Shown here: one piece after another, positions 23,737 through 55,649 of the stretch
Numbering within the stretch: the first letter of the stretch is position 1
Layout: each line of letters begins with the position of its first letter
Source of the DNA: Branchiostoma lanceolatum
Lineage: Eukaryota > Chordata > Leptocardii > Amphioxiformes > Branchiostomatidae
NCBI RefSeq assembly: GCF_035083965.1
Contig: NC_089725.1
Coordinates: 25,057,925 to 25,121,924 of the forward strand
DNA: 64,000 nucleotides
Direction: 5' to 3'
Position numbers and translations under genes: made by a program
The notes under the pieces: model-generated
Told to the model about the DNA's origin: nothing
The model's database searches: none
What the model saw: the letters and a program-made list of their open reading frames with translations, nothing else

Positions 23737-23861
23737 ATCGCCTTCCTTTCCGGCCCTGTGCCATTGTCTTGGTTCGGGACTCCAAGATATGACAGAAGGA
23801 AAATTATGTCGTGGTTTAGGTTCCCGACAACCCACTGACCACCACATAAACAGAAAGGACA
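23737..23861 (+). repeat. Dispersed repeat, copy 1 of 2
   Basis: About 125 bases starting CGCCTTCCTTTCCGGCCCTG and ending AACAGAAAGGACAGCAG match 24602-24727 with only a few changes. Identity and full length are unknown. Confidence 0.7.
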
Positions 23862-24427
23862 GCAGTTAAGTAGCCAAAATTTCAATAGGACACTTAACCC
23901 TAACTAACAAATAGTAAGCTTAACTAGATACATTTAATGCTAGGGTCACATTTCCCAGCCAGGGCCCGACCATGCTGTTTGAGGAAACAAAGTATGAAAA
24001 TTTTGTATCAAGAATATACGTAATTTATGGTAAGGAGTACTTTTTTACTATTTCTGTGTTTTGCTGTCTTTTATATCATTTGTTCCCGCAAGCTTTGGAA
24101 ATGTGTCCTTAAGCATAACTTAGTATATTTTATACATGATTGCTGTAAAAGTGTACACTTTGCATTCTATAAAAGGTCATTTACAATAACTTCATTTACA
24201 GACTGCTGGGGGCATGACAGGAAGTTAACTTGATTTGTGATTGTCATTTCAGTTCTAGGTCCAACCTAGAAATGTACCATCCCCTACTGTCTACCTGAAG
24301 CATTATCAGCAGAGAGAATCATGATCTCTTGATGGATGGCAAGGTGTTGAGTACATTTTGATGACACCCTGAGTGACATTGCTGGCAGGGGGTAGGACAT
24401 TTCAAGAGCGATGAATACTTCACCACA

Positions 24428-24905
24428 CAGGGCTCCAGCCTATTTCTGCGGTATATAAACCCGATGCATGGCAGATTCAGTTTCTGTAACTATGCCGATA
24501 GCCGGGATTGCTCTCGGAGTGACTGCAAAATTCGGTGTTTCAGAGACCAGAGATTTTCCTGGTTCTGTTGGCTCACAACTACTCAGGCTCTCCGACCACC
24601 TGCCTTCCTTTCCGGCCCTGTGCCATTGTCTAGGTTCGGGACTCCAAGATATGACACAAGGCAAATTATGTCGTGGTCTAGGTTCCCGACGACCCACTGA
24701 CCACCACATAAACAGAAAGGACAACAGATGGTAGAAGAATCCAAGCAGTCATAAGCTAACAGAACCGGGAAAATCCCCGTTCTCAGAAACTGTGAACTTC
24801 GCAATCACTCCGCAAACAATCTCAGCCATCGACACAGCTACAGAAACTGAACCAACCACACACTGGGCCTGTACACCACAGAAACGGGCTGAAGCCCTGC
24901 ATGAA
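24428..24905. repeat. Inverted-repeat element holding repeat copy 2
   Basis: The left arm (about 24440-24600) and right arm (about 24740-24890) are diverged inverted copies. Read outward, both translate in the same frame to similar peptides (SETPNFAVTPRAIPAIG and SETVNFAITPQTISAID, then VTETES / ATETEP, then PQK). Between them sits copy 2 of the 125 bp repeat (24602-24727). The right-hand frame stays open to 25064. Family unknown. Confidence 0.55.
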
Positions 24906-25740: not shown

Positions 25741-26370
25741 CAAACATTAAAGGCTCAACGGCAGTCCAATGGTATTGGGAATGTGACGTACAATTAAAAC
25801 TGGACACCTCTGATAAACAGACAAAATTTGTCATGACCAAAAATTCAAATACAAGATGTATAAACTGTGGACCAATTCACAAACCATGTGTATGCTCAAT
25901 TACAGATCCAATTTCATAATGAATCCTATCACCATCAACTAATGCTGAGCAGAGCCTGCTGTCAAACAATTATACAGCACAGGCAATGCTCACCTTGTCA
26001 AAATGTGGTATGAGGCAGAGCCGATTCCCTTGAAGCCTCCTCGGCTTAGTGATGCCCTGCATGTTGTCGCAAAGACCCTTCAGTGTTGCTGCCCAGGGTC
26101 ATGCACGGTCCAGACATATATGTCAATGGTGCCTCCTCACCATTGCTGCAACAAACACAAAAGACAATGGCAAGTGAGAATGTGACATACAATTATGCTC
26201 TGATAAAAAGATAAAACAAAAAGCGCAATCGTGACCAAAATTTCCAACCGACAAATAAGTCCTGTTGTACTACGGTGCGACAAGAATTTTCTGCGAAGCT
26301 TTGCTCAAATCAAGGACATTATATAGGAAGGACTGAGCACGAATAGATAATAATTTCCTAAGAACAATGA

Positions 26371-26993
26371 CACGGGGTATAACGTACGTCACGGGATGGC
26401 CAGACACATTCGGTGGTCGCAGAGATCTATCAGCCGCAACGCGCAGACACATTCGACGCGCCGCGGAAAAATCAGCCGTCCGCGCGGACCTATCAGCCGC
26501 AACGCGCAGACAAATTCGACGCCGCGCGGACCTATCAGCCCTTCGCGAGGAAAACTCAGCCGTGGGACAGCGCCATCAGGTGTCTCACTACTGCCTTCAG
26601 AGAGCGCTGGAAAGCCCGCGCCAAGGTAGGTCCTCCACAATTTCCTTCTCTAGCGTCATATAGAGACATCGACTGGTAATCTAACTAGGCCTATCAGGTG
26701 CCAGACTATCTTAGGGTCATCCGGAGCCAGAAATAATCGGCAGGTCTTCAAATTAAGTCGAGATATAGGGAGAACAGTTCTCAATCGGTGACACACCACA
26801 TCGAAGTTGTCAAGGTAAACAGTGGCTAATGTCGTATTTTGGGCCATTAGAAGCAAAGACATCGGCGGTTTTGACGTCTTTTAGTGTGATTGGGTGTCCA
26901 GAACAACGTAACATACTCTGGAATTGATACAATATGCCCACAGAGCGAAAATCATGTGGTAGAAGTGATACCGCTATATGTCGCCCCCCTCCC
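26371..26993 (+). repeat. Left TIR of the outer transposon, with subterminal repeats
   Basis: The outer 220 bases are GC-rich and hold two direct copies of ATCAGCCGCAACGCGCAGAC followed by ATTCGACG, plus further TCAGCCGT and ATCAGC motifs between them. The same pattern appears in all four TIRs of the nested pair. Regular subterminal motifs of this kind are often transposase binding sites (inference). The remaining 400 bases are AT-rich and end in a C run at the inner limit. Confidence 0.8.
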
Positions 26994-29916
26994 TATTTTC
27001 CAGTAAAGTTACGGCCAATATCTTATGTAGTAGTATAGTAAGCATTAACAGGCAATAGTGTTTTTGTCGCCTCGATTGATTTTGGCGATATGCGGGGAAT
27101 ACCTTCTATCACTTTAAGGGATTATCCTCATCTAGATGATTCAACGAACATCTCATACGTTTCTCGCAAGATTGTTTACTATATTGTTACTACTATTACC
27201 CAGGTATAATGTGTCACTGCAAGTAATCAACCCTGACATTTTTCAGAAATGACTCGTCGACTCAGGTTGACACTACATCCGCGGAAAAGGTGTAGAAACA
27301 AAACAACGGGCACCTGGAAAGCAAACACGCGAAGTTGACGATGTATGGGTAACAGAAGATAACATTGGCATTGATGACAGCACTGCAGCAAGTCCCAGGC
27401 AGAAAGAGACACAACTCTCCTGGTCAACTCCTACTCGAGCTAGCGTCAACGACACTTTTTCTGGACTGTAGGCTTCTCTCCCTTTATACGAAAGGCACTA
27501 AGCAACGGAAATCATACAATGTACAACTGGAATATTCAAATAACTCCATATTTGCCGTAGAAATCTATATATTCATAGAGATATGTATTGAGTAGATATT
27601 GGATGAAGACTATACTTTGTCAGGTTGTTATATTCACAGATGTAGGTAATGGACCATCTCAGCGTTGCATAATTGTACTGACCATCCGTATTTCCTGAAA
27701 TGTTAATCCAAAAATGACACACAAAATATAGTTATATATAACTAGATTTATTCTGGTTGTTTACAAAATATATATTTGCTGAATTGCAATACCATGTTCT
27801 TGATCTTGTTATACATCACTTGGCAAATGACTATGTTGTAATCATATTGCACTGTAGCTTAATCTATTGCTATAGATTACAAATTAAAGTATTCTGATCG
27901 TTTATAAATATTGACTCTTGAAAAAAGAAGAACAAAGTCAAAACCAATCAAATACCGAGTCTCGGCGCCGTGATTTTCCCAACACTACAGATGAAAATAT
28001 GTCACTGTACAGGTGCACTATACACAAGGTATACCTTCTTGTGAAACAACAAATATAATTATATGAACCAGAATTACTGCATGATTACACACAAGTTCTT
28101 CCTTTTTATGAAACCTGTGTTCACACTTGTAGCACTGACAAACGTCTTTACTCTGGGATTGTCATGGGTTCTGTGATGATGTTTCAGGACTTCATATACT
28201 ATGACTTAAAGGACTTTCCACGTTTGTCACAAAAATCCCAATCTGAGTGCACTATCATGTGCTTCTTCACTTGAACTCTTTCTGACAAACTGGGCACTCC
28301 TTGGATGATTCAACTTAGTGATCCTGAAAGTCTCTAGCATAAATAAAGTATTTATTGCACAACCCACACTAAATTGCTGGTCCTTTATCAGCCCCATGGC
28401 AGCGACGCTTGTGTTCAGCTACTGAACCGCTGTTCGCTTAGCACTTGCAATGTGTACACAGACTGCACTGTAGTCCTGCGTGTGGGGGAGGAGACATCCT
28501 TTTCTACATCTTCAGCTGGCAAAACCACACCAGGTAGGTCATCAGACTCGTTGGACTCTTCCAAAGACACTGAACCCTCACTGGATCCACTGGTGCTGGT
28601 GTTTGAACGGGATCCACTGGTGCTGGTGTTTGAACGGGATCCACTGGTGCTGTTACTTGAAGACCAGGTACCCTGTCCCTCCCCAAGGCATGGCTTGTCA
28701 GGTGGTTCTTCATCTCCCTCCTGAAGGCTGGACTTGTAGGGTAGAACAGGTGGTTTTACATTTGTGGTCACATGCACAAACCTGTCCTACTCATCAAACT
28801 CCATGACTGAAATGCAAATTCCAAAAATGAATGCCTTTGTCTGGATAAACATTGATGACTCTGCATCTTCATTGAAATGACCACAACAGTATCGCTTCTT
28901 ATGGCTTTAATACTGCTATAAGAGCTAACATCGTTCTAGTACTTCTACACATGGTGGTTCGTACTGAAGGATGGGGGAGGGGGGCGTTATATAGCGGTAT
29001 CACTTCTACCACATATTTTCGCTCTGTGGGCATATTATATCAATTCCAGAGTATGTTACGTTGTTCTCACGGGGTATAACGTACGTCACGGGATGGCCTG
29101 ACACATTCGGTGGGCGCAGAGATCTATCAGCCGCAACGCGCAGACACATTCGACGCGCCGCGGAAAAATCAGCCGTCCGCGCGGTCCTATCAGCCGCAAC
29201 GCGCAGACAAATTCGACGCCGCGCGGACCTATCAGCTGCTCGCGCGGAAAAATCAGCCGTGGGACAGCGCCATCAGGTGTCTCACTACTGCCTTCAGAGA
29301 GCGCTGGAAAGGCCGCGCCAAGGTAGGTCCTCCACAATTTCCTTCTCTAGTATCATATAGAGACATCGACTGGTAATCTAAATAGGCCTATCAGGTGCCA
29401 GACTATCTTATGGTCATCCGGAGCCAAAAATAATCGGCAGGTCTTCAAATTAAGTCGAGATATAGGGAGAACAGTTCTAAATCGGTGACACACCACATCG
29501 AAGTTATCAAGGTAAACTGTGGCCAATGCTGTATTTTGGGCCATTAGAAGCAAAGACATCTGCGGTTTTGACGTCTTTTAGTGTGATTGGGTGTCCAGAA
29601 CAACGTAACATACTCTGGAATCGATATAATATGCCCACAGAGCGAAAATATGTGATACCGCTATATAACGCCCCCCTCCCCATTTTCCAGTAAAGTTACG
29701 GCCCATCATATACATGTAGTAGTATAGTAAACATTAACAGGCAATAGTGTCTTTGTCGCGTCGATGGATTTTGGCGATATGCGGGGAATACCTCATCTAG
29801 ATGATTCAACGAACATCTCATACGTTTCTCGCAAGATTGTTTATTATATTGCTAGTATAACTATTACCCAGGTATAATGTGTCACTGCAAATAATCAACC
29901 CTGATATTTTTCAGAA

Positions 29917-30144
29917 ATGCCTCGTCGACTCAGGTTGACACTATATCCGCAGAAAAGGTGTAGAAACAAAGCAACGGGCACCTGGAAAGCAAACACAGAT
30001 TGCGAAGTTGAAGATGTATGGGTAACAGAAGATAACACTGGCATTGATGACAGCACTGCAGCAAGTCCCAGGCAGAAAGAAACACAACTCTCCTGGTCAA
30101 CTCCTACTCAAGCTAGCGTCAATAGCACTTTTTCTGGACTGTAG
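29917..30144 (+). CDS. Short open frame inside the inner transposon (75 aa)
   Basis: The frame starts MPRRLRLTLYPQKRC and ends SVNSTFSGL. A TTTTTCAG acceptor-like site lies just before the ATG. A related frame in the outer copy near 27249 is broken. No domain is recognised; the basic N-terminus and acidic middle are the only visible features. It may be the remains of an element-encoded protein or an exon of one. Confidence 0.3.
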   Translation: MPRRLRLTLYPQKRCRNKATGTWKANTDCEVEDVWVTEDNTGIDDSTAASPRQKETQLSWSTPTQASVNSTFSGL

Positions 30145-31043
30145 GCTTCTCTCCCTTTATACGAAAGGCGCTAAGCAACGGAAATCATACAATGTACAAC
30201 TTGAATATTCAAATAACTCCATATTTGCAGTAGAAATCTATATTCATAGAGATATGTATTGAGTAGATTATTCGTCAATTTTAGTACTATGCAGTAAGTT
30301 TGAAATAGCACATGATATTAGATGAAGACTATACTTTGTCAAGTTGTTATATCTACAGATTTAAGTAATGGACCATCTCAGCGTTGCATCATTGTACTGA
30401 CCATCTGTATTGCACCTGTATTTCCTGAAATGTTAATCCAAAAATGACACACAAAATATAGGTACATTGTATATATAACTAAATTTATTCTGGTTGTTTA
30501 CAACATATATATTTGCTGAATTGCAATACCATGTTCTTGATCTTGTTATACATCACTTGGCAAATGACTATGTTGTAATCATATTGCACTGTTGCTTAAT
30601 TTATTGCTATAGATTACAAATTAAAGTATTCTGATCGTATATTAGTATTGACTCTTGAAAAAAGAAGAACAAAGTCAAAACCAGTCAAATACCGAGTCTC
30701 GACGCCATCATTTTCCCAACACTACAGATTTACTCTGGGATTGTCATGGGTTCTGTGATGATGTTTAGGACTTCTTATATTATGACTTAAAGGAATTTCC
30801 ACATTTGTTACAACAATCCCAATCTGAGTGCACTATCATGTGCTTCTTCACTTGAACTCTTTCTGAGAAACTGGGCACTCCTTGGATGATTCAACTAAGT
30901 GATCCTGAAAGTCTCTAGCATAAATAAAGTCTTTATTGCAGAACCCACACTAAATTGCTGGTCCTTTATCAGCCCCATGGCAGCGACGCTTGTGTTCATC
31001 TAGTGAACCGCTGTTCGCTTAGCACTTGCCATGTGTACACAGA

Positions 31044-31337
31044 CTATACTGTAGTCCTGCGTGTGGGGGAGGAGACATCCTTTTCTACATCTTCAGCTGG
31101 CACAACCACACCAGGTAGGTCATCGGACTCGTTGGACTCTTCCAAAGACACTGAAACCTCACTGGATCCACTGGTGCTGGTGTTTGAACGGGATCCACTG
31201 GTGCTGTTACTTGAAGACCAGGTATCCTGTCCCTCCCCAAGGGATGGCTTGTCAGGTGGTTCTTCATCTCCCTCCTGAAGGCTAGACTTGTAGGGTGGAA
31301 CAGGTGGTTTTACATTTGTGGTCACCGTGATGCACAA
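31044..31337 (-). CDS. Ser-rich frame beside decayed C2H2 zinc fingers (inner transposon)
   Basis: The minus-strand frame holds a SGSRSNTSTSGS repeat; the outer copy (28777-28415) has one more 30-base unit. Further along the minus strand (about 30950-30720, and 28380-28020 in the outer copy) broken frames keep C2H2 signatures such as CGLCNKYFIYARDFQDH and ECPVCQKEF. This suggests the element once carried or captured a zinc-finger gene convergent with the left frame. It is degenerate in both copies. Confidence 0.35.
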   Translation of the reverse strand: MCITVTTNVKPPVPPYKSSLQEGDEEPPDKPSLGEGQDTWSSSNSTSGSRSNTSTSGSSEVSVSLEESNESDDLPGVVVPAEDVEKDVSSPTRRTTV

Positions 31338-32693
31338 ACCCTGTTCTACTCATCCAACTCCATGGCTGAAATGCAAATTCCAAAAATGAATGCCTTTGTC
31401 TGGACAAACATTGATGACTATGTATCTTCATTTAAATGGCCACGACAATATCGCTTCTTATGGCTTTAATACTGCTATAAGATATGTTAACATCGTTCTA
31501 TACGTGGTGGTTCGTGCTGAAGGATGGGGGAGGGGGGCGTTATATAGCGGTATCACTTCTACCACATATTTTCGCTCTGTGGGCATATTATATCGATTCC
31601 AGAGTATGTTACGTTGTTCTGGACACCCAATCACACTAAAAGACGTCAAAACCGCAGATGTCTTTGCTTCCAATGGCCCAAAATATGGCATTGGCCATTG
31701 TTTACCTTGATAACTTCGATGTGGTGTGTCACCGATTTAGAACTGTTCTCCCTATATCTCGACTTAATTTGAAGACCTGCCGATTATTTTTGGCTCCGGA
31801 TGACCATAAGATAGTCTGGCACCTGATAGGCCTAGTTAGATTACCAGTCGATGTCTCTATATGATACTAGAGAAGGAAATTGTGGAGGACCTACCTTGGC
31901 GCGGCCTTTCCAGCGCTCTCTGAAGGCAGTAGTGAGACACCTGATGGCGCTGTCCCACGGCTGATTTTTCCGCGCGAGCAGCTGATAGGTCCGCGCGGCG
32001 TCGAATTTGTCTGCGCGTTGCGGCTGATAGGACCGCGCGGACGGCTGATTTTTCCGCGGCGCGTCGAATGTGTCTGCGCGTTGCGGCTGAAAGATCTCTG
32101 CGACCACCGAATGTGTCAGGCCATCCCGTGACGTACGTTATACCCCGTGGTTCTGGACACCCAATCACACTAAAAGACGTCAAAACCGCCGATGTCTTTG
32201 CTTCTAATGGCCCAAAATACGGCATTAGCCACTGTTTACCTTGACAACTTCGATGTGGTGTGTCACCGATTGAGAACTGTTCTCCCTATATCTCGACTTA
32301 ATTTGAAGACCTGCCGATTATTTCTGGCTCCGGATGACCCTAAGATAGTCTGGCACCTGATAGGCCTAGTTAGATTACCAGTCGATGTCTCTATATGACG
32401 CTAGAGAAGGAAATTGTGGAGGACCTACCTTGGCGCGGGCTTTCCAGCGCTCTCTGAAGGCAGTAGTGAGACACCTGATGGCGCTGTCCCACGGCTGAGT
32501 TTTCCTCGCGAAGGGCTGATAGGTCCGCGCGGCGTCGAATTTGTCTGCGCGTTGCGGCTGATAGGTCCGCGCGGACGGCTGATTTTTCCGCGGCGCGTCG
32601 AATGTGTCTGCGCGTTGCGGCTGATAGATCTCTGCGACCACCGAATGTGTCTGGCCATCCCGTGACGTACGTTATACCCCGTGAATGACTGTT

Positions 32694-32714
32694 CTTCTTC
32701 TTCTTCTTCTTCTA
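32694..32714 (+). repeat. (TTC)n microsatellite
   Basis: Seven TTC units directly right of the outer transposon's target duplication. Confidence 0.7.
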
Positions 32715-34679: not shown

Positions 34680-37600
34680 ATGGCGCGTGGTCGAGGTAGG
34701 GGAGGTCGCCGACGGGAAGATAGACAGAAAGCGAAACAACGACAGATAAACAGGGCTCTGAAGTTGTCAGAGATAAATTCTAAAGCTAGATATCAACAGG
34801 AAGAATATCTGCGTCGAAGACAACAAGCAGAAAGGTAAACATGGGTAACCACGGATCCTGTTTCATATGGGGGAGGGGGGGCGCCGAAACAACATGCTCG
34901 CGCTTGCACGTGCACGTGTCTCATGCACATGTATACAATAATATTTTTATGAAATTTGTCGAATCATACGAGCGGGCTAAACAGGCCGACGATTCTACTC
35001 TAATCTACTCTTGTCGATAAAACTTAGACATCATAAAGTAAGACTTGAAAAATTATGACAAAAACAGCTACCTTTTATTTTGCTTGTACATTTTTTTTTC
35101 AGAAATGTTGAATGTTAATCTGTTGTTTCTCGGATTATGAATTGTACGCCATAAGATTTGGACAATGTTTCATGTGCAAAACTAAAATGAACCCAACAAT
35201 GTTTGCAGAGAAGCGCTGAGGAAAGCTCAGGGAGAAGGAAGTCAACAACCAAGACCAGATAAGGTTAGCAGATTTCAATACAGTTTGTTACCTACCCTAT
35301 ACAATAGTATAAACTGCTTTGCATTTGCTCTATGTGTCATTATCTGTATCTACCTTGTCCCCCTAACGACCTAGAGGTCAAGGGAGCAGGTACATGTATG
35401 TAGGTAGGTACTAGTACTAGCTTGTAGGTATCTATATAACCAGGCCGGTATAACCGCCCTTCGGTCATGTCGGCATAGCACACCAGCTTCGCAGGCAAGC
35501 AGCCCAGCAGTAGTTGGTTGATGCTAGCTATGTCTTCTCTGTGAGGATGTATTAGGGGTTTGAAGTGTACATAAAACCAGGAGGAAGACTTGGTCTAATA
35601 CCATATAGAAAGAGTCCTAACAAGTCTTGATGATTTAGTAGTGCTACAAAGGAATACACACTATCAGGACTGCCTGCCATTAGATTCAACTAATGAAAAT
35701 ATATGATTCTTCGAGGTCATTGCCATGATGATAGGGACAAAATTGAGACCAGTGTTAGTGTTATAATCATTACTATTTAATACGTTGATGAAGGTTAGAC
35801 ATCCAGGTAATAAGATACGCCAAAAATAATTACTCAAGCAACTGGATAAGATTTTGAAACAGTCAGACGTTTCAGACAGTATCCACTGTCTTTCGTCAGT
35901 GACTAACGATAGGACTGAGAACACCAGCTTTATACCAAAACTCTGAATAGATATGTTAATGAGGTAAAGACAATTTAGGATGTCTTGAAGTAGTCTTCAA
36001 AAAGAAGATTAACTCAAGACAAAGTTATGCCAATAGTTCAATTAGCTACTGTTGTTCTAGTACAGTAACTAAATGTTGCTGCGAGGATGTACAACCCCGC
36101 CCTCAACAGGAAAGGCGGTCTACGCGTTCAACTTTCAGGCACTTGGGATAATGCACTGCCCACCACCCCCCACCCCCGGACAAGCAACATTTAGTTACTG
36201 TACTAGAACAACAGTAGCTAATTGAACTATTGGCATAACTTTGTCTTGAGTTAATCTTCTTTTTGAAGACTACTTCAAGACATCCTAAATTGTCTTTACC
36301 TCATTAACATATCTATTCAGAGTTTTGGTATAAAGCTGGTGTTCTCAGTCCTATCGTTAGTCACTGACGAAAGACAGTGGATACTGTCTGAAAGGTCTGA
36401 CTGTTTCAAAATCTTATCCAGTTGCTTGAGTAATTATTTTTGGCATTACTATTTAATGTTTTGCAGAATGACGAAGCATCATCATCATCCAGTGAAAGTG
36501 AAGATGAGAGGCAGACACCCTATGATCTCCTAGTGACATCACTACAGTCAAACAGAGATCAGAGCTCCTCGGAAGAGATCTCAGAATCAGAGAATGATGA
36601 TGATGATGATGATGATGTGCAAGAGGAGGAAGATGACATTGAAAGTGATGAAGACAGTGAACAGGAAGACATCACTAGAGAGCATGATGGTGAAGATGTC
36701 AGTACTGACAATGAGGAGGAAGAAACTGTTCCTGAGGACATACCATCTGATGAAGAAAGAACAGTGAAAGGAAAGAAGAGGAAAAAAGATGATGTTGGAA
36801 AGGATGGAGCCTTAGAGCAAAAGAAAAAGAAGCTGAAATCAAAGAGGGAGGAGCAAGAGAAGGAAGGACAATGGTCTTCAGATGGAGAGAGTGAGGTAGA
36901 GGATCTTGAAGAGGAAAAGACCACTACTGGGAAGGGTATGTTCCACTATTACTCTGTGGTAGAGTCTTATTGGTACCTCCACACAATGATATGTTGGTTA
37001 CTGGTTGTTGCATACTGACTCATGGTACTGAGTGTATAGTGTATTACATGTTCAACCAGTCGCTTGGGTCTGGGTACAACTGGGAAAGAATCGTATTGTC
37101 CTTTCAGATGGGGACATAAAGCCGGTGGCCCCGTGCATGAGGGAGCTTATGGCGTCAAACCTCTGCACATGAAAATAACCCAACACACTTATCTATAAGA
37201 GTAGTGGTGACCTGGTGTGCTTGGCTGAAAATGCAAGCTGTAGCAAAGCCACAGGTTGACCGCGTTACCTTTTACATTGCAGACCCTTTTTGGCAGCAAG
37301 TAACCACTGAGCTGCAGGAAGACCAGGTGGACAAGCTGGGACAGCAGAGCAACTGGGCAAAGAAGGAGGCAACGGTCTGTGTTTTGATGACTTGCTATTG
37401 TATGATTGCTTTAACTGTATGATTAACTTAGATGTTGTATTTATGTGTCAATATAAAAGTTTTTTTTTTTTTTAAGTTTGTAGATGCCACTTCAACATTT
37501 TCTCTCTCTCAATATCAAAACTTTCTCCCTTACTCACAGCACACTCCCTGCTAGGACCACTTTAGCTGTAGAGATAGGATACCCCTAGTGCTAATCAATA

Positions 37601-43376: not shown

Positions 43377-44279
43377 AGTATGCTCTCAATGTTAGACATT
43401 TTTTATGATTCACTGATGAACAACAATTGTGCATATTGAAGTTTGAAAAAGACTGGACGAGATTCCATGTGAATCAACCAGAACCAGACAAACCATTGAA
43501 GACAGGGGTTTGGAAGTATTAGAAAACCTCAAAAGTTTCTAGTAGGATGATTTGAAACAGTGTTGTATGCTGCTGTCCCCATAAAGAGAAAAAATACATT
43601 GTAAATTGCTGGGAAATTTTTTAAAAGAGCCATAAACACTTCCTGAGCAGTTTTCAGACTGCACTTAGTTATTTCATGTATAAACCAGTCTGTTAGTCTT
43701 CAACCCTGTTTATTTTGCACCCAAGTGTACACAGATGTACAGGCTTTCAAATGAACATTATAATCTTAAGAAAACTGACAATAACAACATTCCCAGAATA
43801 ACATGTTTCTACTCACTATTGTGTATATTATTAGTGAAAGCTATTTTAAAGCTTTTAAAGCAGTTTAGAAGAATCCATTGATACAATGAGTAGTTTGGTC
43901 CGTTTTAACGTCTTATGACAAGGACAAGTCAGGAATTTTATGTTAGTCAACAATTAAACAGTTACTGAAAAGAGAGAAGTGTATTATGAACTATTTCTAG
44001 CATTAACTATAGTTGCCTTCCCATTGACAGCTATAAGTCATGTGTAACCAGGAATACAGTCGTGTGATTAACAGCAGTATTACTAGTATATTGGGTTAAG
44101 TCTGCTATCACCGAGTCTGCTTCAGGCTATGTACAGAGTCTGCCATGCTTCTACATCAACACTGTCTTTAAACTTGTAATTGGATGTCACAACAATTCTT
44201 TTTCCTGTCCTGCCATATTATGTAATGTCTTTGCGATGCATCCAGGGCCTTTATGTAAGAGCGTAGCAAGTTCCCTCAT
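43377..44279. other. 3' UTRs of the convergent UTP25 and receptor A genes
   Basis: AT-rich; no coding content. A minus-strand AATAAA at 43714-43709 is a candidate signal for receptor A. Sequence next to the receptor A stop (about 44100-44279) is still similar to the 3' flank of receptor B (55650-55800), so it belongs to the duplicated segment. Confidence 0.5.
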
Positions 44280-47200
44280 CTAGTGAGGCTGGAGCCCCTG
44301 GTACTCATGAGCCTTCAGCCCCTGATACTCATGAGGCTTTGGTCCGTGATACTCATTAGCCTTAAGCCCCTGATAATCACGATGCTGGAGCCCCTGATAA
44401 TCATGAGGCTTGGGCTGCTGATAATCATGAGGCTTGGGCTGCTGATAATCATGAGGCTTGGGCTGCTGATAATCATGAGGCTTGGGCTGCTGATAATCAT
44501 GAGGCTTGAGCCCCTGATAATCATGAGCCTTGGGTCTCTGATACTCACTAGGCTTGACATACTCATACACATGGTCTTCCTCCAATTTTTTAGGAGGCAC
44601 GTCGACTGGTGGGGGAGGTAAGGGCCCTAGGTAATAAGAGTCCCCACTAGCTGTGGATGCACCCCCAGTGTTATCATAGATATCATTTCTGTAGGCTCTG
44701 TTCTGATAGCTGTTTTTCGGGTGTGGGGCGGGGGTTTGCCTGATGTTACTTTGCCCTGTCCTGCAGTAACAGCAGCAGCAGCAGCAGATTGCTACCGAAA
44801 TGATGAGGAACATGACAACTCCTGCACCAAGCCCACCATAGAGGGCCCAGGGTATACCAGTAGAACCTTCTGTAAAGCAAAATTAAAAGCATGAGGACAT
44901 ATATTATACTGCATGTATTTCATGTCGCTGAAAAAGGGACATATGATTAGATTTTTTTTAAATCCTTAAAACTCCATTATACATTTGCATTCTAGAGTAA
45001 AAATCTTGCTCTTCAAGTTCAAGAGCTTAAAGGGTCATTGCTAGGTGCTCTCCCTCTCTGTCTAGTACAGACTAGGACATAGCACTGCACACAAAAATAT
45101 AGTTTCAAGTTGAAAAAACAGTTCACACACAGGAATGCAAATCTAGTTCAGCTACCCATAGGATACTGGGTCATACCTGATGAAGGTGTCTTCCCGTGTG
45201 AAGGTGTACCTTGTCCGGGAGGCTTGAAGTCGAAGATGATGTCAGCTGTGTGGTTACCTTGGAAACCAGTGAAGTACTTGACCTTGACTGTGCTGTTGCT
45301 GTCCCGATCGTACAGATGAAGGTTTCCTCCAGATGTGGCCTTCAGCAGGATTTGTATCCTTAGAAATAGAAAATTGAGAATGTACTTCACAGTGGCTAAG
45401 CAATAATTGGTTAAAAGAGAGGAAAGCAACTATAACAAGTTCAGTAGGTCACAATCCCAGACTTTTGAGATGGCTACGAAAGCTTTTAGCCTCCGTTGCA
45501 GGCTTCCCCACGGCAATTTTTCTACTTATCGGGTCAGGTTCTTTGGCTGGAGGGCCGTATCTGCTTGAGGCCCCGTATCTGCTTGGGATGTGTGGATACA
45601 GGATCCCAAGCAGATACGGGGCCTCAAGCAGATACGGCCCCCAGCCAAAGAACCTGACCCGATAAGTTGAAAAATTGCCGTGGGGAAGCCTGCAACGGAG
45701 GCTATCAACCTTCCCCCTACTCCATAACGAATACAACGTGGTCAAGCATTCTTCAGTAGGCAAGGCAATCTCTAGGCTGGTTGAAATGGATTGCCACCAG
45801 ATCTTGGCTTCAACATGCGGTACAGAAGCCAAGTCTGTAGCAAAGTCTGACACCTGGTTAACAGAATGATGGTGAACCGTTAACGCATTGAAGCAGAAAT
45901 GAGCCTTACCCTTGTCCAGGTGTGGCAGTCCAGTCCAGTGAGATGTCCTCCTCACAGGTGAACATGCCCTGCACCGGATTATCCGCTGTTCCTGTACCTA
46001 TGGCTGTGCTGCAGGTTGTCGTCTCAGAAGCAGTTTCTACATTTTCTGTAGGAATAACAGATTTTTTCAATGAATATCAAGCTTAAGTGATGCCGAACTT
46101 GTAGCAGAGGTAACTGATCTATGAGAGCTGATGATAACATTGTCAGAACAAAGTAGGTTCCCACCATTTTGCAATGATACGACAATACTTCCTTCTGTGA
46201 TGCCAAGAGCCATGCTTTTAACATAGACCGGTGCATCAGGAAGGGAGCCGGGCTGGAAGGTCGCAGTCCACCGAACCCTGATCCGTTCTACTCGTGCCAT
46301 GTTGATGTAGGCGGCATCGCCATCCTCACTGGATCTGCTGCAGCTGCCTGGAATCAAACATGGAAACTGAAGGATTAGAGCACTAGCTGTTTATAACATG
46401 TCGACAGAATATCGAGACTACTGGTCATAACAAAACAGTATGTAAGGTAAATATCCCGTATATAGGCTCATACAGTTTTGTCCAAAAGGGAGATCGTATG
46501 CAACAGCTGTTACTCTGATGCAACGTTGGTCAAAGAGGATGGATAGGTTTGGATACCAGGCTATATGTCGTATGTGCATCACGCTCTGGGTACATGCTAA
46601 GGGGGACATGTATACAATCTGATACTAGTATATCGAATTTCTAACAGATCAGAAATGAATCAAGGGGGATCAAAGATGGTGACCGAAATAGACAAAAAAT
46701 AGTGCATTTACCAGTGCCCTTCAAAGAGACGGATATTACCTTGTTCGGTAGCAATCCCATTGACATTTATTCCTGTTAGTTCATAGGAACAGTCATGAAA
46801 AGCTGGGGCCTGATGAACTGGACAAAAGGAAAAGAAAACCAATTTGCCAAACTGTTAAAGTTCATACCCGAGGCTGGCAGGTAGGGCATATTTATTAGTG
46901 TGCCATGTTTGTATGCAAAGTTTCATTTATGCGTATCCATGGCGAAGCTTTGACTATTCTATTATCGTATCGAATGGTCCTGACCCAACTTGGTGGTTCC
47001 CTTTCAAAGATGTTTATAGATATAGCAACCCACCTGTGCGACAGTGCGGACCTCCAAACCCAGGTGCGCATGTGCAGGATTGAACACCTGAGGCACAGGT
47101 CCCCGGGTAACAACTGTTGCTGTCCTCACGCCACGAACAGGCCTCTGGAAAACATGTCCTAACATATTGAAATCTTAAACCTTAAAGTTCTACCAAGGTC

Positions 47201-48579
47201 AGTTGTTAATTCAGTTTCCCAAGTGGAGGTTTGTTAAGTTAGAGCTTTTCGCATCTTCAACACTAGCCTGGGTGCCATCCTCGTTAGCCGCGGCTCACAA
47301 ACTCCCGGCAACTTGCCAACCAGTATCAACATTAAAGCATCCTCAAAGTCATCCGTCGATTCTTTTCGTAAATCTACTGCGATTGTTCTAAAAATGTTTA
47401 ACGTTTCGAGTTGAACAACGAAGTTGATGCGGCTAATAAAACAGTCGCATGCTCACGTCTGCATCTCGTTCCCAGGTTGTCGAAGGCCTGTCCCCTGACC
47501 CCGTAGTCTCCGTCACACCGCTGGCACTGCTGGTTACTGCCGTGACTACAGCTCAGGCTGGCGCAGTGGCTGATGGGACTACACGCTGGAATATGACCAC
47601 GATAGACATGTTTTTCTTTCTTCAATTAGCTGCTTGTAGCCATGAACACATTGAAGACAGTATGAATCGGTTTTAAGGAACCCTCAAGAAGCTGCGATAT
47701 GTGAACCTCCAATGGACTTCACTATTTGGTTAGTGCGGCACCCATAAGGTGTCCGTATGACACTCTGAGGAGCTATACAAAACACCAATGCAGTTTTGCT
47801 ATAATGACGCAAAGGAATATTTCTCACCAAAGACAAATTAGATCGAAAGCTTAAAATGTTGACAATACACTGAGTAAGGGCACCGCTTGTGGAAATAAAG
47901 TGTTTCTGCCATTATCATTTCAAGGGCTATGAAGTAAATCTCAATTTGTCGTTAGTCTGATTTTCATTTTCGATCATTTCTTGACATGTTATTATTGATT
48001 TGTTGTATACTTATTGATTCATTCATGTATTATTGTGTTCCATAATTTGCTTCTATTTAAGTGTACTAGAAATTGGTTATATCTATGGTTTTCTTTATAA
48101 TTGTATTTCATTATTATCATTAGTTAGTTTATAGGAGGAGGGCTTAGAAAAGCCTCCCGGGTTTCCTCCCTCCTATAGTTATATCACGTATATCTATCTG
48201 CCTCTGTTTCTTTTTTTATTTGTGCGAACCAATACACAAACAAACAAAACAAACAAATCAAATCTAGTTAACGGCCTTTCTAACCTGATTGACAGCAAGT
48301 GTTCCAGTAGTCACCTTGACACGCACAATGAGAGGCAAACGGAGTCCCGCCATTAGGACAGCCCCGGTTGCACGGCTCCGTCTGTGAACTCGGCCCCGCG
48401 CAGCCCGCCCCGCCATGCTGAGCGTGTCGAGCAACCCCCCTGGTCCGGGTCCTGGTGCCCGAGTTCCCGCAGGGTGCTGAGCAGCCGCCCCAGCTGCTCC
48501 ACGGGCCCCAGGCACAGTTGACCGGAGTCTGAGCCCGCCTTCTCCGGCGCCGCCGCCATCCCTCGGAAGGTCCCGTCAT
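44280..48579 (-). CDS. Type I TSP1/EGF membrane protein, copy A, with long Tyr-repeat tail
   Basis: Exons (minus): 48579-48285, 47585-47457, 47144-47034, 46817-46740, 46347-46165, 46045-45910, 45358-45177, 44869-44280; 567 residues, all GT-AG. Order: Arg run, TSP1 domain (CAWGPWSSWGGCSAPCG), EGF-like Cys modules (exons 1-3; CTCAPGFGGPHC), an unrecognised ectodomain region with NCS/NHT-type glycosylation sites, a TM helix (IPWALYGGLGAGVVMFLIIS), CCCCCCYC, then a tail with eleven 8-residue units such as HDYQQPKP. In this frame the first ATG gives no signal peptide: the hydrophobic leader seen in copy B exists (48655 onward) but is out of frame because of a 7-base insertion. Alternative upstream exons or an assembly error are possible. 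Ligand unknown. Confidence 0.82.
44281..44570 (-). repeat. 24 bp coding minisatellite in the receptor A tail
   Basis: Eleven tandem 24-base units encode [H/A/P][D/E]YQ[G/Q][L/P][K/Q]P-type octapeptides; four central units are nearly identical and read YQQP. Copy B has only two or three units. Confidence 0.9.
45487..45704. mobile_element. Near-perfect palindromic fold-back element in receptor A intron 6
   Basis: Arms 45487-45589 and 45603-45704 are almost exact inverted copies (starting TAGCCTCCGTTGCAGGCTTC) around a 13-base loop. High arm identity suggests recent insertion or recent gene conversion. Copy B lacks it at the matching place. Confidence 0.85.
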
Positions 48580-49154
48580 GCGTCACCATCAGCAGGAACA
48601 GAATAATGACAAGACGCGTTTGGGTTTTTTTCAGCTGAAAACATCGATCGTACACAAATTGTAACGGAATGGAAAGGATATCGGCACTTGTTTCCTATTT
48701 CTACAGATCTGAAATCTTGTATCTACAAAATGTCAATGATAAACTATTATCATGTTAGCGTGTACATTATCACGTTTACAAGTGGCATGCCCCAGCGTCA
48801 CCGATTCTTTTCCTGCGCCGGATTCGGGGGAGGCTGATTAATTTTCAAAATGTTGCCAATTCTATCGTATCAATGACAGTTGTTATATGTCCTAAGTATT
48901 TCACTTTGAGTAATTGGAACCTGTGCATTTAGTGTCTGACAAAACGACCTCAAGTACAGAAAAAAATGCAAACTAGCATTTTTACTTGTTTCGCTCATAT
49001 CATTTTACCAGTTGCTGTCTTTGGTAGACACAGTGCAATGTCCACTTGTACTTCAGCAAATCAACACTTGTCTATCAAACATATCATTATAGCCTGGCCT
49101 GACTAAATAAATCACTATTTTAGAGGACCATTCAGTCGTTAGGCCCTTGACAGC

Positions 49155-49255
49155 GAGAGTTTGTGTTATACAGTAGAGATAAAATTTGTGTTACACAGAA
49201 GAGTTTGTGTTACACAGAAGAGTTTGTCACACGGAAGAGTTTGTGTTACACAGAC
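49155..49255 (+). repeat. Minisatellite, units of about 15-22 bp
   Basis: Tandem, imperfect copies of GAGTTTGTGTTACACAGAA. Confidence 0.75.
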
Positions 49256-50278
49256 TAGTCATAGACAAGATATGTATAACGTTAGTTTACCACTAGTGCT
49301 GCCATTGAAGGTCCCTTTCGTTCGAAAAAGGAAGAAGCACGTAAATGGATAACTTATGTCAGCAGCACTCAACCAGTACAGTACAACCCTCCTCTAGACT
49401 CGCAGAAGAATGTGAAGGGCGGATGAGTAATGTACCACGGTCACTTCCTCTTTCTATTTCAAAACGGACGCCCCACAAGTACGCAACACAAAAGAGGCTT
49501 AGCTTCGTCTTCTATGAAGCAGATATCCAGTTATCCACTCAAGAAAAACTACTTGTACGAAATGAGAAGAAGTAGAAGTGTCCGTGTGTGTCACCATAAC
49601 ACCAGACAATAAAAACAATGCTGCGGGTTGAATAGATTTGTGTCGTAGGAGTATCTGTTGTGAAGACACGGGTCCTGATTAGATCGGGTCGTTTCTTTTG
49701 TTCGAAACTATGTGCGTTGGCAGAATGGCTACGTTGCAGTACTTTGAACTCAGAGGAGCAACTCTCCTAAACAACGATACGTCTTCTATTGTTGGGGTCG
49801 GGGTCGGGTACTTACCATTTTACCATTTTCAGATCCCTTCCTGTTGCAACCGGAGGGAACGTGTACGGTCTAGCTAGGTGCCAAGTCGTTCTGCAGTATA
49901 TAGCCAGCGCGAAGTTGACGTGTTGCGCCGAAAGGTGGTCATACCGGTATACCAACACAAATACAGATAAGGTCAGGATGTCAAAGTTGAAAGCGGTTTT
50001 CACTGTTGGATAATGCTTCAGGGGGAGAGAAATCATCTCGGGGAAAAGTTAGTCTTTATAGCCTCCATTGGTTCATTCTTGTCTTCACCATGTCGTCATA
50101 GACAGTTAACTTTTGTCAGTAGTCAAATATTTTAGTTTCTGCAATAATCTATAATACTTGGCCTGAGTGGTAAATGATGGGAATAAATGTAACTTGCACA
50201 ATAAGCATTAAAAACAGCTAGCTGTAGCACAATCTCTTTCCTGTTTATTAAAAAAATGTTCCATAGTCATTGAACATG

Positions 50279-50380
50279 TTAGCCTGGGTACCAACCTTCG
50301 TACAAACTCGCTGGTGGTAACAACAAGCGAAAAGAGATCGAGAGCCAGCGGTTACTTCGGAGGATGGTACCCATGCTAGG
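50279..50380. repeat. Small inverted-repeat element
   Basis: TAGCCTGGGTACCAACC at the left faces GGATGGTACCCATGCTAGG at the right, about 100 bp in all, with imperfect arms. A related fragment (AGCCTGGGTGCCATCC) is near 47266. Confidence 0.5.
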
Positions 50381-50448
50381 CCCATGTCGGTAATGATGAT
50401 TATTGTACATTTAAGGTAGAAATTAGGGTGTCACCTGCATAGTTATAG

Positions 50449-50650
50449 AAAGTGATTGTTGCCAGAGGTATGGAACTCTAGTTTATCTTTATTGCGGTCT
50501 GTCTACATGTGAAACATTGTACAAAATACACGATCCCTCCTATTTGGTCCCATCTTTATCACGTTGATGTATGTCCATTTACTCTGTCTCCATATTGACA
50601 AACTACTCTATTGGAGGAATTCCATACATAGCGTGTAACGCAGTGAATCA
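50449..50650 (+). repeat. Dispersed direct repeat, copy 1 (second at 56388-56590)
   Basis: Both copies share GTGATTGTTG, then AAGGTATGGAACT or its variant, a TTTATT-rich stretch, TGGTCCCA, ATCACG/GTCACG, and end with ATACATA then CGTGTAACGCAGTGAA. Clearly related but diverged. Family unknown. Confidence 0.55.
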
Positions 50651-51029
50651 AACGGCACTGAAAAATAACCCCTACGAGGGCAAAGGGTACTAATAGTAAA
50701 ACGTATCAAGGGCATTCGATAAATTGTATAAGTCTATCATCTGTGTCACCACAGATAGACTCTACCAGGCCTTTCCATCTACAAATTTTGTAGAAGTCGG
50801 CCAAAATATGGTTACTTAGTTGGGACTAAACTTGCCTAATATGTGTCAACAAAGACAGCTTAAGATTGGCGAAACTCTTCACTAAGTAGTATGGGTTTCA
50901 AATGCACATACAACACCTGAGTGAGGACGCTATTCTTTTAGCGAACGCTTGTGGAAATGAAACCGACAATTCCGTCTTTTAAGATGAGTCAGGAGTCCTT
51001 GAGCACGGTGAGCTCATCAAAGTAACATG

Positions 51030-51185
51030 TTTATTCATCTTCGCCAAGCATCATTCGTTGCCAAAGGCCGGGGCGTGGAATTCTTTCACCAAAGCACTTG
51101 AATTGAAACCGCCCTTGTGCAGCATGGAATACGACACCTTCTTTTGTGTTTCGAACTTCTGGGGCGTCCCCATGGCCAGTACCTG
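51030..51185 (-). repeat. Inverted partner of sequence at 52270-52420
   Basis: The minus strand shares AAGG(A/G)CGGTTTCA, TGCTTTGGT, GAAAGAA, CACGCCC and GAAGATGAATA with plus-strand 52300-52412. The minus-strand frame here reads SYSMLHKGGFNSSALVKEF. Not recognised; may be a dispersed repeat with an old coding frame. Confidence 0.45.
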
Positions 51186-51775
51186 TTTTAAAATAGAAAG
51201 AGGAAGTGGTAAAATGCTCATCCCCTTCACATCCTTCTGTGAGTATTAGAAGACGGATGTGATGGTAAGTACTTCTGCCGTTAGTTCTCCTATTATGTGT
51301 TTCTTCCATTTTCTGTACCGTTGAAACGGAGATTTGAATGTCAACAGTACTGGTGGTGAAACTATACATGGCATGGCTATAACTAGTCTCTGTTATACAA
51401 ATTCTCACTGATTTATTTAGTCAGACTAGGGCACTAGGCTACAATGTTTGCTAGATAAGTGTTGATTTCTGAATTGCAAGTGTGGCATAGTTTTCAATAT
51501 ATTGAAAGGAAAATACTCAAGATAAGACATATAACATTAACACGATAGATTCGACACGTTTAACTCCAAGTGTATAGCAACATTTTCAAAATCAATAAGC
51601 CCCCCTCCTCAGGACACGTCGCAACGATTGGAATGTAACGTTGGGGCATGACATCCGAAAATTGATAAGTACAGATGTAGATACAAGATTTGAGATCTGT
51701 AAAAACAAGAAACAAGTGATGATTTCCTTTTCGTTCCGTAACATTTTGTGTGCGGTCGATTTTTTTCAGCTCAAA

Positions 51776-54700
51776 ATGACCCCGAGAACCAAAACGCGCC
51801 TTGTCATCATTCTGCTACTGCTGATGGTGACGGGACCTTCTGAAGGGTGGCGGCGGCGTCGGAGAAGGCGAGCTCCGACTCCCGTCAACTGTGCCTGGGG
51901 CTCGTGGGGCAGCTGGGGCGGCTGCTCAGCACCCTGCGGGAACTCGGGCACCAGGACCCGGGCCAGGGGGGTTGCTCGGCACGCTCAGCATGGCGGGGCG
52001 GGCTGTGCGGGACCGAGTTCACAGACAGAGCCGTGCAACCGGTTCTGTCATAATGGCGGGACTCCGTTTGCCTCTCACTGTGCGTGTGAAGGTGACTACT
52101 GGAACACCTGCTGTCAATCAGGTTAGAACCACTATTACCTGGCTTTTGTTAGGTTTTACACTGTATTTGATAGTACTTTTAAAATTTACAATGTATTTGA
52201 TAGAAATGATAATGATATCAAAACGTTGGTCTATCTAAGGAAGAAGTACTCTATGGAGAAAGTAGGGTCAGGGCTAAGGGGAACCACTTTGCACGAAGCA
52301 GTGTTTTATGTAAACAAGGACGGTTTCAGTTCAATTGCTTTGGTCAAAGAAATTCACGCCCAAGGCCCGGTTTGCGAGGAACGATGCTTTGTGAAGATGA
52401 ATAGACATGTCACTCTGATGATCTCATCCTGGTCTCAACAAACGGATGGGGATTCCCAATATACGGAATCATAGTCAGTTTCGTTTCCGCAAACTTATTT
52501 CCTTACACAAGGAGTGTCAACATTTAAACCTATAATTTAAACCTATTTCTACTATTTTAGATATCTTCGCAGAGTCTGACGTAGACACATTCCCGTGATT
52601 TGTACGTTTACTGGTGTATCACTAACCAGATTGTGAAGCGCATTGGGATGTTCAGTTATTTCAGCCTCTTGAAGGTCACTTAAACCGATTGCATTGTCTT
52701 AAATGTGTGATGATGCATGCATGGCTAACTACCTGGGGAACCTTAACATTTCTGTCGATGTCATATTCTAGCATGTACTCCCATCAGCCACTGCGCCAGC
52801 CTGAGCTGTAGTCACGGTAGTAACCAGCAGTGTCAGCGGTGTGACGGAGACTACGGGGTCAGGGGACAGGCCTTCGACAACCTGGGAACGAGATGCAGAC
52901 GTGAGCACGCGACTGTACATGTTTTGATAGCCGCACAAACACCGCTATCAAGTTTGAAATTCTAAACATTTTCAGATCAATCAAAATCAATTGATGTATG
53001 ACTGTGATGATCCACGTATATCTAACGTTATCGTTTAAGATTTCAGAAAAATACACTAAACCGAGAATCCGTCGGTACGCTGCCGTACGCGTGGTATATG
53101 TTTATCTAGGTAGATGGATTGATTGATTGCAGTCAAGATGGAAAAACAACCTATAACTTAACAAAGCTCCAGTAGGGAAACTTAATTAACAATTGACCTT
53201 GGCACAACATCAAAGTTTAAGATTTCAATATTTTATTCATGTTTTCCAGAGGCCTGTTCCTGGCGTGAGGACAGCAACAGTTGTTACCCGGGGACCTGTG
53301 CCTCAGGTGTTCAATCCTGCACATGCGCACCTGGGTTTGGAGGTCCACACTGCCGTACAAGTGAGTTATAAAGCTCTCAGTGGAAGGGACCCGCGGGACT
53401 GGGTCACAAACATTTGATAAATGATGAAATATATTCAAAGCTTCACCAAGAGTAGGTTAAACTTTGAGACATGACATACTTATCAATATACCTGTCTTTC
53501 AGCCTCAAGTTTGGTAAATTGATTTCCTTTTTTCTTTTATCCAGTTCAGCAGGCCCCAGCATTTCATGACTGTACCTATGAACTCATAGGAAACAATGGG
53601 ATTACTACTTTACAAGGTAATATCCGTCTATCTTAAGGGCATTGGTAAAGTCACAAGATAACTATTATTGGTCCATTTCGGTCACCATCTTTGATTTCTC
53701 TATGACTCATTTATGAATTGTTTGTATGATAGCATAAGATGTTATAAGTTTTGTATCACTACTTCTGTCATCAACTGACAAACAAAACCTTGTTCTAATC
53801 TTTTCGTTTCTATCTTGAATTCCAGGCAATTGTAGCCGATCTAGTGAGGATGGTGATTCAGCCTACATCCACATGGCACGAGTGGAACGGATCAGGGTGA
53901 AGTGGACTGCCACCTTCCAGCCCGACTCCCTCCCTGTTGCACCAGTCTATCTTAAAAGCATGGCTCTTGGCATCACAGAAGGAAGTATTGTCGTGTCATT
54001 GCAAAATGGTGAGAACCCCATGGACCATCATATATCATTTACTTCTGCTACAAGTTCGACATCGCTTGTACTAAAATTGATACTCATCACGAAAAAATCT
54101 TTTGTTGTTCTTTTAGAAAATGTCACTACTGCCTCTGAGACGACAACCTGCAGCACAGCCATAGGTACAGGAACAGCGGATAATCCGGTGCAGGGCATGT
54201 TCACCTGTCAGGAGGACATCTCGCTGGACTGGACTGCCTCACCTGGACAAGGGTAATGCTCATTTCTGCTTCACCAGTTCTTCATCATTCTGTTAACCAG
54301 GTGTCAGACTTGTCTTCTGCACTGCGTGTTGAAGCCGATTAGTAGCTATCCATTTCAACCAATTGCAACCAAGAAACTAATTAGAAGCTTTTGTAACCAA
54401 GTCAAGTACCTTACAGACTGATACAGTAAACACAAGTATTGGAATTGTACTGAACTTGATTGTTACCTTTTAACACACCTCGAATTGTCATTATTGGTCT
54501 CATTTGTTTAAAACAGCTATTGCTTAGTCACTGTTAATTACATTCTCAATTAAATTGTCATTTCTATTTCCAAGGATACAAATCCTGCTGAAGGCCACAG
54601 CTGGAGGAAACCTTCAGCTGTACGATCGGGACAGCAACAGTGCAGTCAAGGTCATGTACTTCACTGGTTTCCAAAGTAACCACACAGCTGACATCATCTT

Positions 54701-55649
54701 CAACTTCAAGCCTCCCGAACAAAGTACACCTTCACCAGGTATGACCCAGTATCCTACGACTGAACTCGTTACATGGGGAAAATATTTGCACCCCTGTAGC
54801 TGCGGCACTATAGCCTGAGTGTCATCCAATTTAGTTCTAGGCTCTGCCTTGTTCTGTGAAGGCAGAGCCTGGAACTAAACAGGATGACACTCAGGCTAGC
54901 GGCACTGCACGATGGACATAAGGAGTGCCTGAAATATGGGCTGTCGAAGATCCTGATTTTCACTCCAGAATGCACCTGTCCAACATTATGACTGACATGT
55001 TAACCATACCACCAGCACCAGTATGAGGTGCATATATCCCATTTCCTTGTAAATGGTGCCTGTGCCAAAGGTCCCTTTTACAGTAATCATTGTTAAGGAA
55101 TATTACTTATTTGGTATTCCAAATCAATCGCTAACATTCCTGGACTACGAGCTTAATTTTGCACAAATCAATCTTGATGTCGCAGTGATGAACAATGGAA
55201 TTGAAGGATATATCATTATCTAACTTAAAATAGTTTTCAGCAGCATAAGTAGGAAAAGTGTTATGTTTTAATTTGTTAACTTTGCAGAAGGTCCTACCAG
55301 TATACCCTGGGTCCTCTATGGTGGGCTTGGTGCAGGACTTCTCATCTTCCTCATCATCACTGTAGCCATCTGCTGCTGCTGCTGCTGTTACTGCAGGAAG
55401 GGACAAAGTGATCCCGGGCAAACCCCTGCCCCATGCCCCAAGGACAGCTATCGGAACAGTGCCTACAGCCATGATATCTATGAAAACGTTGGGGGTGGGT
55501 CCATAGCTAGTGGGGATTCTTATTACCTACGGCCTTTGCCTCCCCCACCAACCAATACATCAGAGAAAGACCGCGAGTATGTGGATCTTAAGCCTCATGA
55601 GTATCAAGGGCTTAAACCTCGTGAGTATCAGGGTCTCAAGCGTCACTAG
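51776..55649 (+). CDS. Type I TSP1/EGF membrane protein, copy B
   Basis: Exons: 51776-52121, 52772-52900, 53250-53360, 53545-53616, 53826-54008, 54117-54252, 54575-54738, 55288-55649; 500 residues, all GT-AG with closing phases. Residues 1-24 are a signal peptide (TRLVIILLLLMVTGPSEG), then WRRRRRRR (a basic, possibly processed site), TSP1 (CAWGSWGSWGGCSAPCG), Cys-rich EGF-like modules through exon 3 (CSWREDSNSCYPGTCAS), and an ectodomain region in exons 4-7 found only in copy A here. Exon 8 has TM (WVLYGGLGAGLLIFLIITVA), CCCCCCYC and a short tail with DIYENV, EYVDL and two EYQGLK units. A splice-like TTTTTTTCAG sits just before the ATG, so a 5' UTR exon may exist. Likely a cell-surface adhesion or signalling protein; function inferred only. 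Confidence 0.88.
54811..54898. repeat. Hairpin element in receptor B intron 7
   Basis: TAGCCTGAGTGTCATCC and AGGCTCTGCC face GGCAGAGCCT and GGATGACACTCAGGCTA, a fold-back of 88 bp with a loop of about 12 bases. Confidence 0.75.

Follow-up and report, generated by a model that had tools for sequence, protein, structure and literature searches.

Nested Arrangement of Two Related Elements

Within a 64,000-nt stretch of the Branchiostoma lanceolatum contig NC_089725.1 (the window), positions 26366–32688 hold two copies of one transposon-like element with long inverted arms, and the inner copy lies within the right arm of the outer one. The initial annotation had read this arrangement as the insertion of one copy into its sibling and had specified the ends of both, the length of the target duplication, and the order of events. 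We re-measured the region, and all of these points are borne out by the flanks, by the alignment of the arms, and by the grouping of variable arm sites described below. AATGA stands on both sides of the outer element and GTTCT on both sides of the inner one, read directly, and each pair is exact over exactly 5 bp (Table 1), although the 5-bp rule is drawn from two copies only (n = 2). The probability that two random 5-mers of the window are identical is 0.0012.

Both elements start with CACGGGG and finish with CCCCGTG. Taken alone, the outer duplication is ambiguous by one base: a C follows AATGA on both sides, and ATGAC around an element running ACGG..CGTGA would also fit. The inner copy is flanked by a C on one side and a G on the other and is free of this ambiguity, and the ends of the elements are therefore CAC..GTG. 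When up to three mismatches are allowed, the 25-base terminus occurs four times in the window, all four exact and at the four expected ends, and never in 100 shuffles of the window. With these figures for the terminus and for the 5-mers, chance similarity was rejected as the source of the termini and duplications.

If the inner copy and one GTTCT are left out, the outer right arm can be aligned over its full length with the remaining arms, as had been claimed from the letters. Each uninterrupted arm contains a single GTTCT, whereas two copies surround the inner element; the inner element therefore arrived in an outer element that was already present. In other words, nesting by transposition, with the outer copy inserted first, is well supported.

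The outer target, rejoined without its element, reads AAGAACA-ATGAC-TGTTCTT (26360–26370 with 32689–32696), a palindrome with perfect 7-bp arms that is one base off the duplication. Palindromes of this make-up occur at 5 of 63,981 window positions; the inner target is not palindromic, and the palindromic target is a single case.

Table 1. Positions of the two elements, their target duplications, arms, repeats, and cargo in the window.
Feature	Position	Strand	Basis or remark
Left AATGA target duplication, outer element	26366..26370	.	direct reading
Right AATGA target duplication, outer element	32684..32688	.	direct reading
Outer element (3,226 bp net of inner copy and one GTTCT)	26371..32683	+	re-measured
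Left GTTCT target duplication, inner element	29063..29067	.	direct reading
Right GTTCT target duplication, inner element	32150..32154	.	direct reading
Inner element (3,082 bp)	29068..32149	+	re-measured
Left arm, outer element (623 bp)	26371..26993	+	local alignment
Inward piece of outer right arm, terminating in the first GTTCT	28975..29067	-	local alignment
Terminal piece of outer right arm	32155..32683	-	local alignment
Left arm, inner element (614 bp), without a 10-bp stretch present in the other arms	29068..29681	+	alignment
Right arm, inner element (623 bp)	31527..32149	-	local alignment
Two 63-bp GC-rich repeats with a finer period of 21 bp, outer left arm	26427..26551	+
Same 63-bp repeats, inner left arm	29124..29247	+
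Same repeats, inner right arm	31958..32093	-	73-nt copies in register
Same 63-bp repeats, outer right arm	32503..32627	-
Ser-rich acidic open frame, outer cargo	28415..28786	-	upstream of and extending into the finger region
Decayed C2H2 zinc-finger region, outer copy	28010..28480	-	approximate limits
Decayed C2H2 zinc-finger region, inner copy	30730..31060	-	approximate limits; lacks 155 bp present in the outer copy
75-amino-acid (aa) open frame, inner copy	29917..30144	+	no known relative
Stretch matching the 75-aa frame, outer copy	27249..27471	+	frameshifted

Aligned over their full lengths, the two copies are identical at 2,861 of 3,001 aligned sites; 140 substitutions and 15 indels separate them, the largest indels measuring 155 and 48 bp. 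Because of these differences, it is unlikely that an assembler pasted one sequence twice. A search of the window with 26366–32688 masked (blastn, word 7, E up to 1) gave no further copies, and exact matches to the 25-base terminus were found in 0 stretches of the viral collection and 0 of the prokaryote collection. In a word-based search of the open-licence literature, whose scope excludes Repbase and which does not imply that the family is unpublished, no publication was recognized as describing it.

The interrupted outer right arm comes to 622 bp by local alignment, its two pieces taken together. Within its first 200 bp, the outer left arm is rich in G+C and in CpG, with 6, 8, 8, and 6 CpGs per 50 bp followed by 4, 1, and 0 in the next blocks; this stretch holds two 63-bp repeats that have counterparts in the other three arms. 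These CpG-rich repeats may be a binding array for the transposase or for host proteins. The terminal 250 bases folded as RNA are unremarkable (z 0.04), and Rfam at gathering scores and a tRNA scan both gave 0 hits.

Cargo and the Missing Transposase

The initial annotation had also stated that the transposase of this family could not be seen, and as far as Pfam can tell from the inner copy and the outer left piece (26371–29067), this holds. The six read-through frames of each contain no Pfam family at cut-off, a result to be read with the limit that an enzyme lacking a Pfam model would escape the scan; the longest stop-to-stop frames inside the elements are only 121–142 aa. Among ten window proteins searched against Pfam, the five that are pieces of the elements gave 0 hits. 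Two matches in read-through frames, to TMEM239 (E 0.31) and to DUF2256 (E 0.023), fall short of their cut-offs and were not used.

On the minus strand, the right half of the element carries a Ser-rich acidic stretch (a 123-aa frame in the outer copy) followed by a decayed C2H2 finger array, recognized in a three-frame reading. The patched finger reading of the outer copy, the only one searched against PDB, has its best match in ZBTB20 (E 1.9e-07, a value that the patching flatters). The top six hits are all C2H2 proteins; the search gave 27 sequences up to E 10, and the seventh, a gamma-crystallin (E 0.0058), marks the reach of chance. A single-finger piece of the outer copy gave 0 Pfam hits. 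Because several stops inside the fingers are common to both copies, the cargo was broken before the copies parted, and since both elements carry this decayed cargo with its shared stops, both were probably mobilized in trans.

The 75-aa frame of the inner copy matched a single PDB entry, at a meaningless E of 1.2, and no Pfam family. A 27-bp cargo repeat is present in 2.6 copies in the outer element (28583–28652) and 1.9 copies in the inner one (31164–31215).

Relationship to Known Superfamilies

Elements of the CMCT lineages are described as having mostly CA..TG ends and duplications of 2–5 bp (PMC12730594), and for Transib, RAG, and RAG-like (RAGL) elements the duplications are given as predominantly 5 bp, with ends that start with CAC (PMC7204232). 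The present elements have the 5-bp duplication and CAC at four of four ends. We tentatively suggest, therefore, that the mobilizing enzyme most likely belongs to the CMCT clade, where a Transib/RAG-like enzyme offers the best single fit to the 5-bp duplications. The likeness extends to ProtoRAG, which belongs with the elements having 5-bp duplications and CAC-initial ends (PMC7204232, PMC8289069): a G stands at position 7, as in its CACTATG, and changes at positions 4–6 are reported to have had no significant effect there (PMC8289069).

Several observations weigh against this placement. Targets of ProtoRAG, Transib, and RAG are reported to lean to G+C (PMC8289069), whereas the duplications here are not GC-rich (1 of 5 bases in AATGA and 2 of 5 in GTTCT, at two sites only). 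The best matches to TR5, to the recombination signal sequence (RSS) nonamer, and to both heptamers are no closer than those found in shuffled sequence. Only 6 of 17 positions agree with the protostome RAGL consensus (AAA at positions 8–10), and no transposase was found with Pfam. ProtoRAG, as described, has TR1/TR5 ends with unlike spacers of 27 and 31 bp (PMC8289069), whereas the arms of about 620 bp are alike at both ends here.

Some of these points serve an alternative to which we give real, although guarded, weight: that the transposase stands outside CMCT (e.g., hAT5) or comes from an undescribed group, the CAC start being coincidental. Apart from the CAC start and the length of the duplication, these elements do not show the Transib/RAGL traits. 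The ends of hAT elements are of the CAG type. No hAT domain was found here by Pfam in the inner copy and 26371–29067, although hAT5 elements are reported to make 5-bp duplications as well (PMC12730594). The agreement of the ends with both the CA..TG of CMCT elements (PMC12730594) and the CAC start of Transib/RAGL (PMC7204232) speaks against a coincidence. We do not file the elements under Transib/RAG-like.

Other long-arm systems resemble the pair in part. Galileo, a P-superfamily element of Drosophila buzzatii, is reported with arms of about 575–610 bp and nested insertions in its copies, but with 7-bp duplications, and its reported nested inserts belong to other families (PMC2775673). Pack-MULEs and plant Mutator-like elements (MULEs) with long or multiple arms resemble the pair in their long arms and in their cargo of gene fragments, but the additional internal arms reported in them have no recognizable duplications (PMC3310237); the inner copy here has such duplications. 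The duplications of Mu itself are described as 9 bp and not 5 bp. Mutator/foldback and P-type elements such as Galileo are disfavoured because their duplications are 7–10 bp, against 5 bp at both copies. The Ginger2 elements TDD-4 and TDD-5 are reported to have 5-bp duplications and arms of 260 and 297 bp, but Ginger is disfavoured by its TGTNR end pattern (PMC2836005), the ends here being CACGGGG.

Homogenization and Divergence of the Arms

Comparison of the four arms over the 610 gap-free columns among their first 620 gives 17 sites that divide two against two, and all 17 pair the arms of the same element. Each of the remaining 13 variable gap-free sites sets a single arm apart from the other three: four do so for the outer left arm, none for the outer right, five for the inner left, and four for the inner right. 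One of the inner-left sites, column 594, is next to a 10-bp gap and could have been produced by the alignment. Because sites shared by side, which would be expected if the arms had evolved independently, are not seen in the arms proper, the two arms within an element have become uniform since the lineages parted. This pattern suggests that conversion between the two arms of each copy keeps them alike. A similar pattern is on record for Galileo, in which the arms of copy 1 are 0.0018 apart and those of copy 2 are 0.0071 apart, against 0.067–0.069 between these two copies (PMC2775673).

It might be objected that the arms are alike simply because the copies are young and their arms derive from a recent common template, without conversion. 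Young long-arm elements, MULEs among them, are indeed reported often to have similar or near-identical arms (PMC3310237), but the 17 element-grouped sites would require either the identical change twice or copying from arm to arm after the lineages split, and we regard youth alone as an improbable explanation. Rearrangement of existing copies is less credible still. Recombination and assembly errors are both favoured by long copies that resemble each other and have long arms, but three observations make recombination or misassembly, in place of transposition, a very remote source of the nested order: the exact GTTCT duplication around the inner copy, the substitutions and indels separating the copies, and the 17 informative sites, at none of which the arms are exchanged. 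In Galileo copies 4 and 5, which lie at inversion breakpoints in Drosophila, exchange between copies is reported, by contrast, to have swapped the arms (PMC2775673, Table 2).

The two arms of the outer element differ at 4 of 619 sites and those of the inner element at 9 of 610, a difference that is not significant (Fisher p 0.17). Because the arms of the older outer copy are no more diverged than those of the younger inner copy, arm divergence does not bear out the known order and cannot safely be used to date insertions here.

The differences between the outer arms are unevenly placed, with one in the terminal 534 columns and three in the next 86 (Fisher p 0.009, for a test picked after the data were seen and resting on four sites only). 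This step coincides with the inner insertion, and the inner arms show no such step (8/534 and 1/77). As a weaker lead, the step would fit conversion between the arms that took place after the nested insertion and was bounded by it. Against this lead, all four sites are private to one arm, and the ends of the arms may differ for other reasons.

A Proposed Course of Events

Inverted arms of 614–623 bp, a duplication of fixed 5-bp length found twice, and no intact transposase found with Pfam together give the picture of a non-autonomous terminal-inverted-repeat transposon. Leaving the superfamily aside, we consider it very probable that the two elements are copies of one non-autonomous cut-and-paste family, nested by transposition, mobilized in trans, and with their arms converted. 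A transposase encoded elsewhere would recognize the arms, for which the CpG-rich repeats near the ends, with their 21-bp period, may be the signal, and would cut at CAC..GTG; insertion at a putative 5-bp staggered cut would leave the AATGA seen on both sides. Later, a sibling inserted likewise into the right arm of the first element, where GTTCT is now found on both sides. Both copies carry the same decayed zinc-finger cargo with its shared stops, which would fit probable mobilization in trans, and conversion between arms may then maintain the observed likeness within each copy.

The following points count against this account. Only two copies of the family are seen within the window. Gap column 621, at the inward edge of the arms and outside the 610-column gap-free count, has a C in both right arms only and so groups the arms by side and not by element. 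None of the matches between the cargo and the C2H2 models of Pfam reaches its cut-off (best E 0.031 in the outer copy and 0.059 in the inner one), and the cargo could be a protein of the family itself instead of a captured gene. It is a more far-reaching and doubtful proposal that the pair represents a long-arm, cargo-carrying branch of the Transib/RAG-like elements whose arms would still convert each other after insertion.

Other Features of the Window

Apart from the elements, a 126-bp direct repeat (23740–23865 and 24602–24727) has copies that are 95% alike and 862 bp apart. At 35768–36457, inverted arms of 273 bp, 98% complementary and 102 bp apart, are bracketed by two exact copies of a 14-bp direct repeat, CATTACTATTTAAT, at 35768–35781 and 36444–36457; this unit is directly followed by what looks like a splice acceptor and by an acidic open frame, and stretches resembling its left end are found at 16238 and 63138. 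Diverged gene copies in inverted orientation occupy 44257–55672, with pieces 78–95% alike; at both ends of this region, a membrane-like stretch with a run of cysteines is followed by Tyr-containing 8-aa repeats in differing numbers. The proteins of the window include a CS-plus-TPR protein and a thrombospondin-type domain (Pfam), both in keeping with an animal source.

Implications

Nested insertion and the homogeneity of arms within a copy are already known, for example from Galileo, and the present pair is a tidy example of known events, namely the nesting of non-autonomous transposons and the concerted evolution of their arms. Its value is that the ends, the duplication length, and the relative age of the copies can be read from a nested pair itself, with no recourse to other data. 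The pair also puts a widely used shortcut to the test. Its necessarily younger copy is not the one whose arms are more similar, and in this family the divergence of the arms should not be taken as time since insertion. If an autonomous partner proved to be Transib/RAG-like, the V(D)J recombinase would gain long-arm, cargo-bearing elements as relatives.

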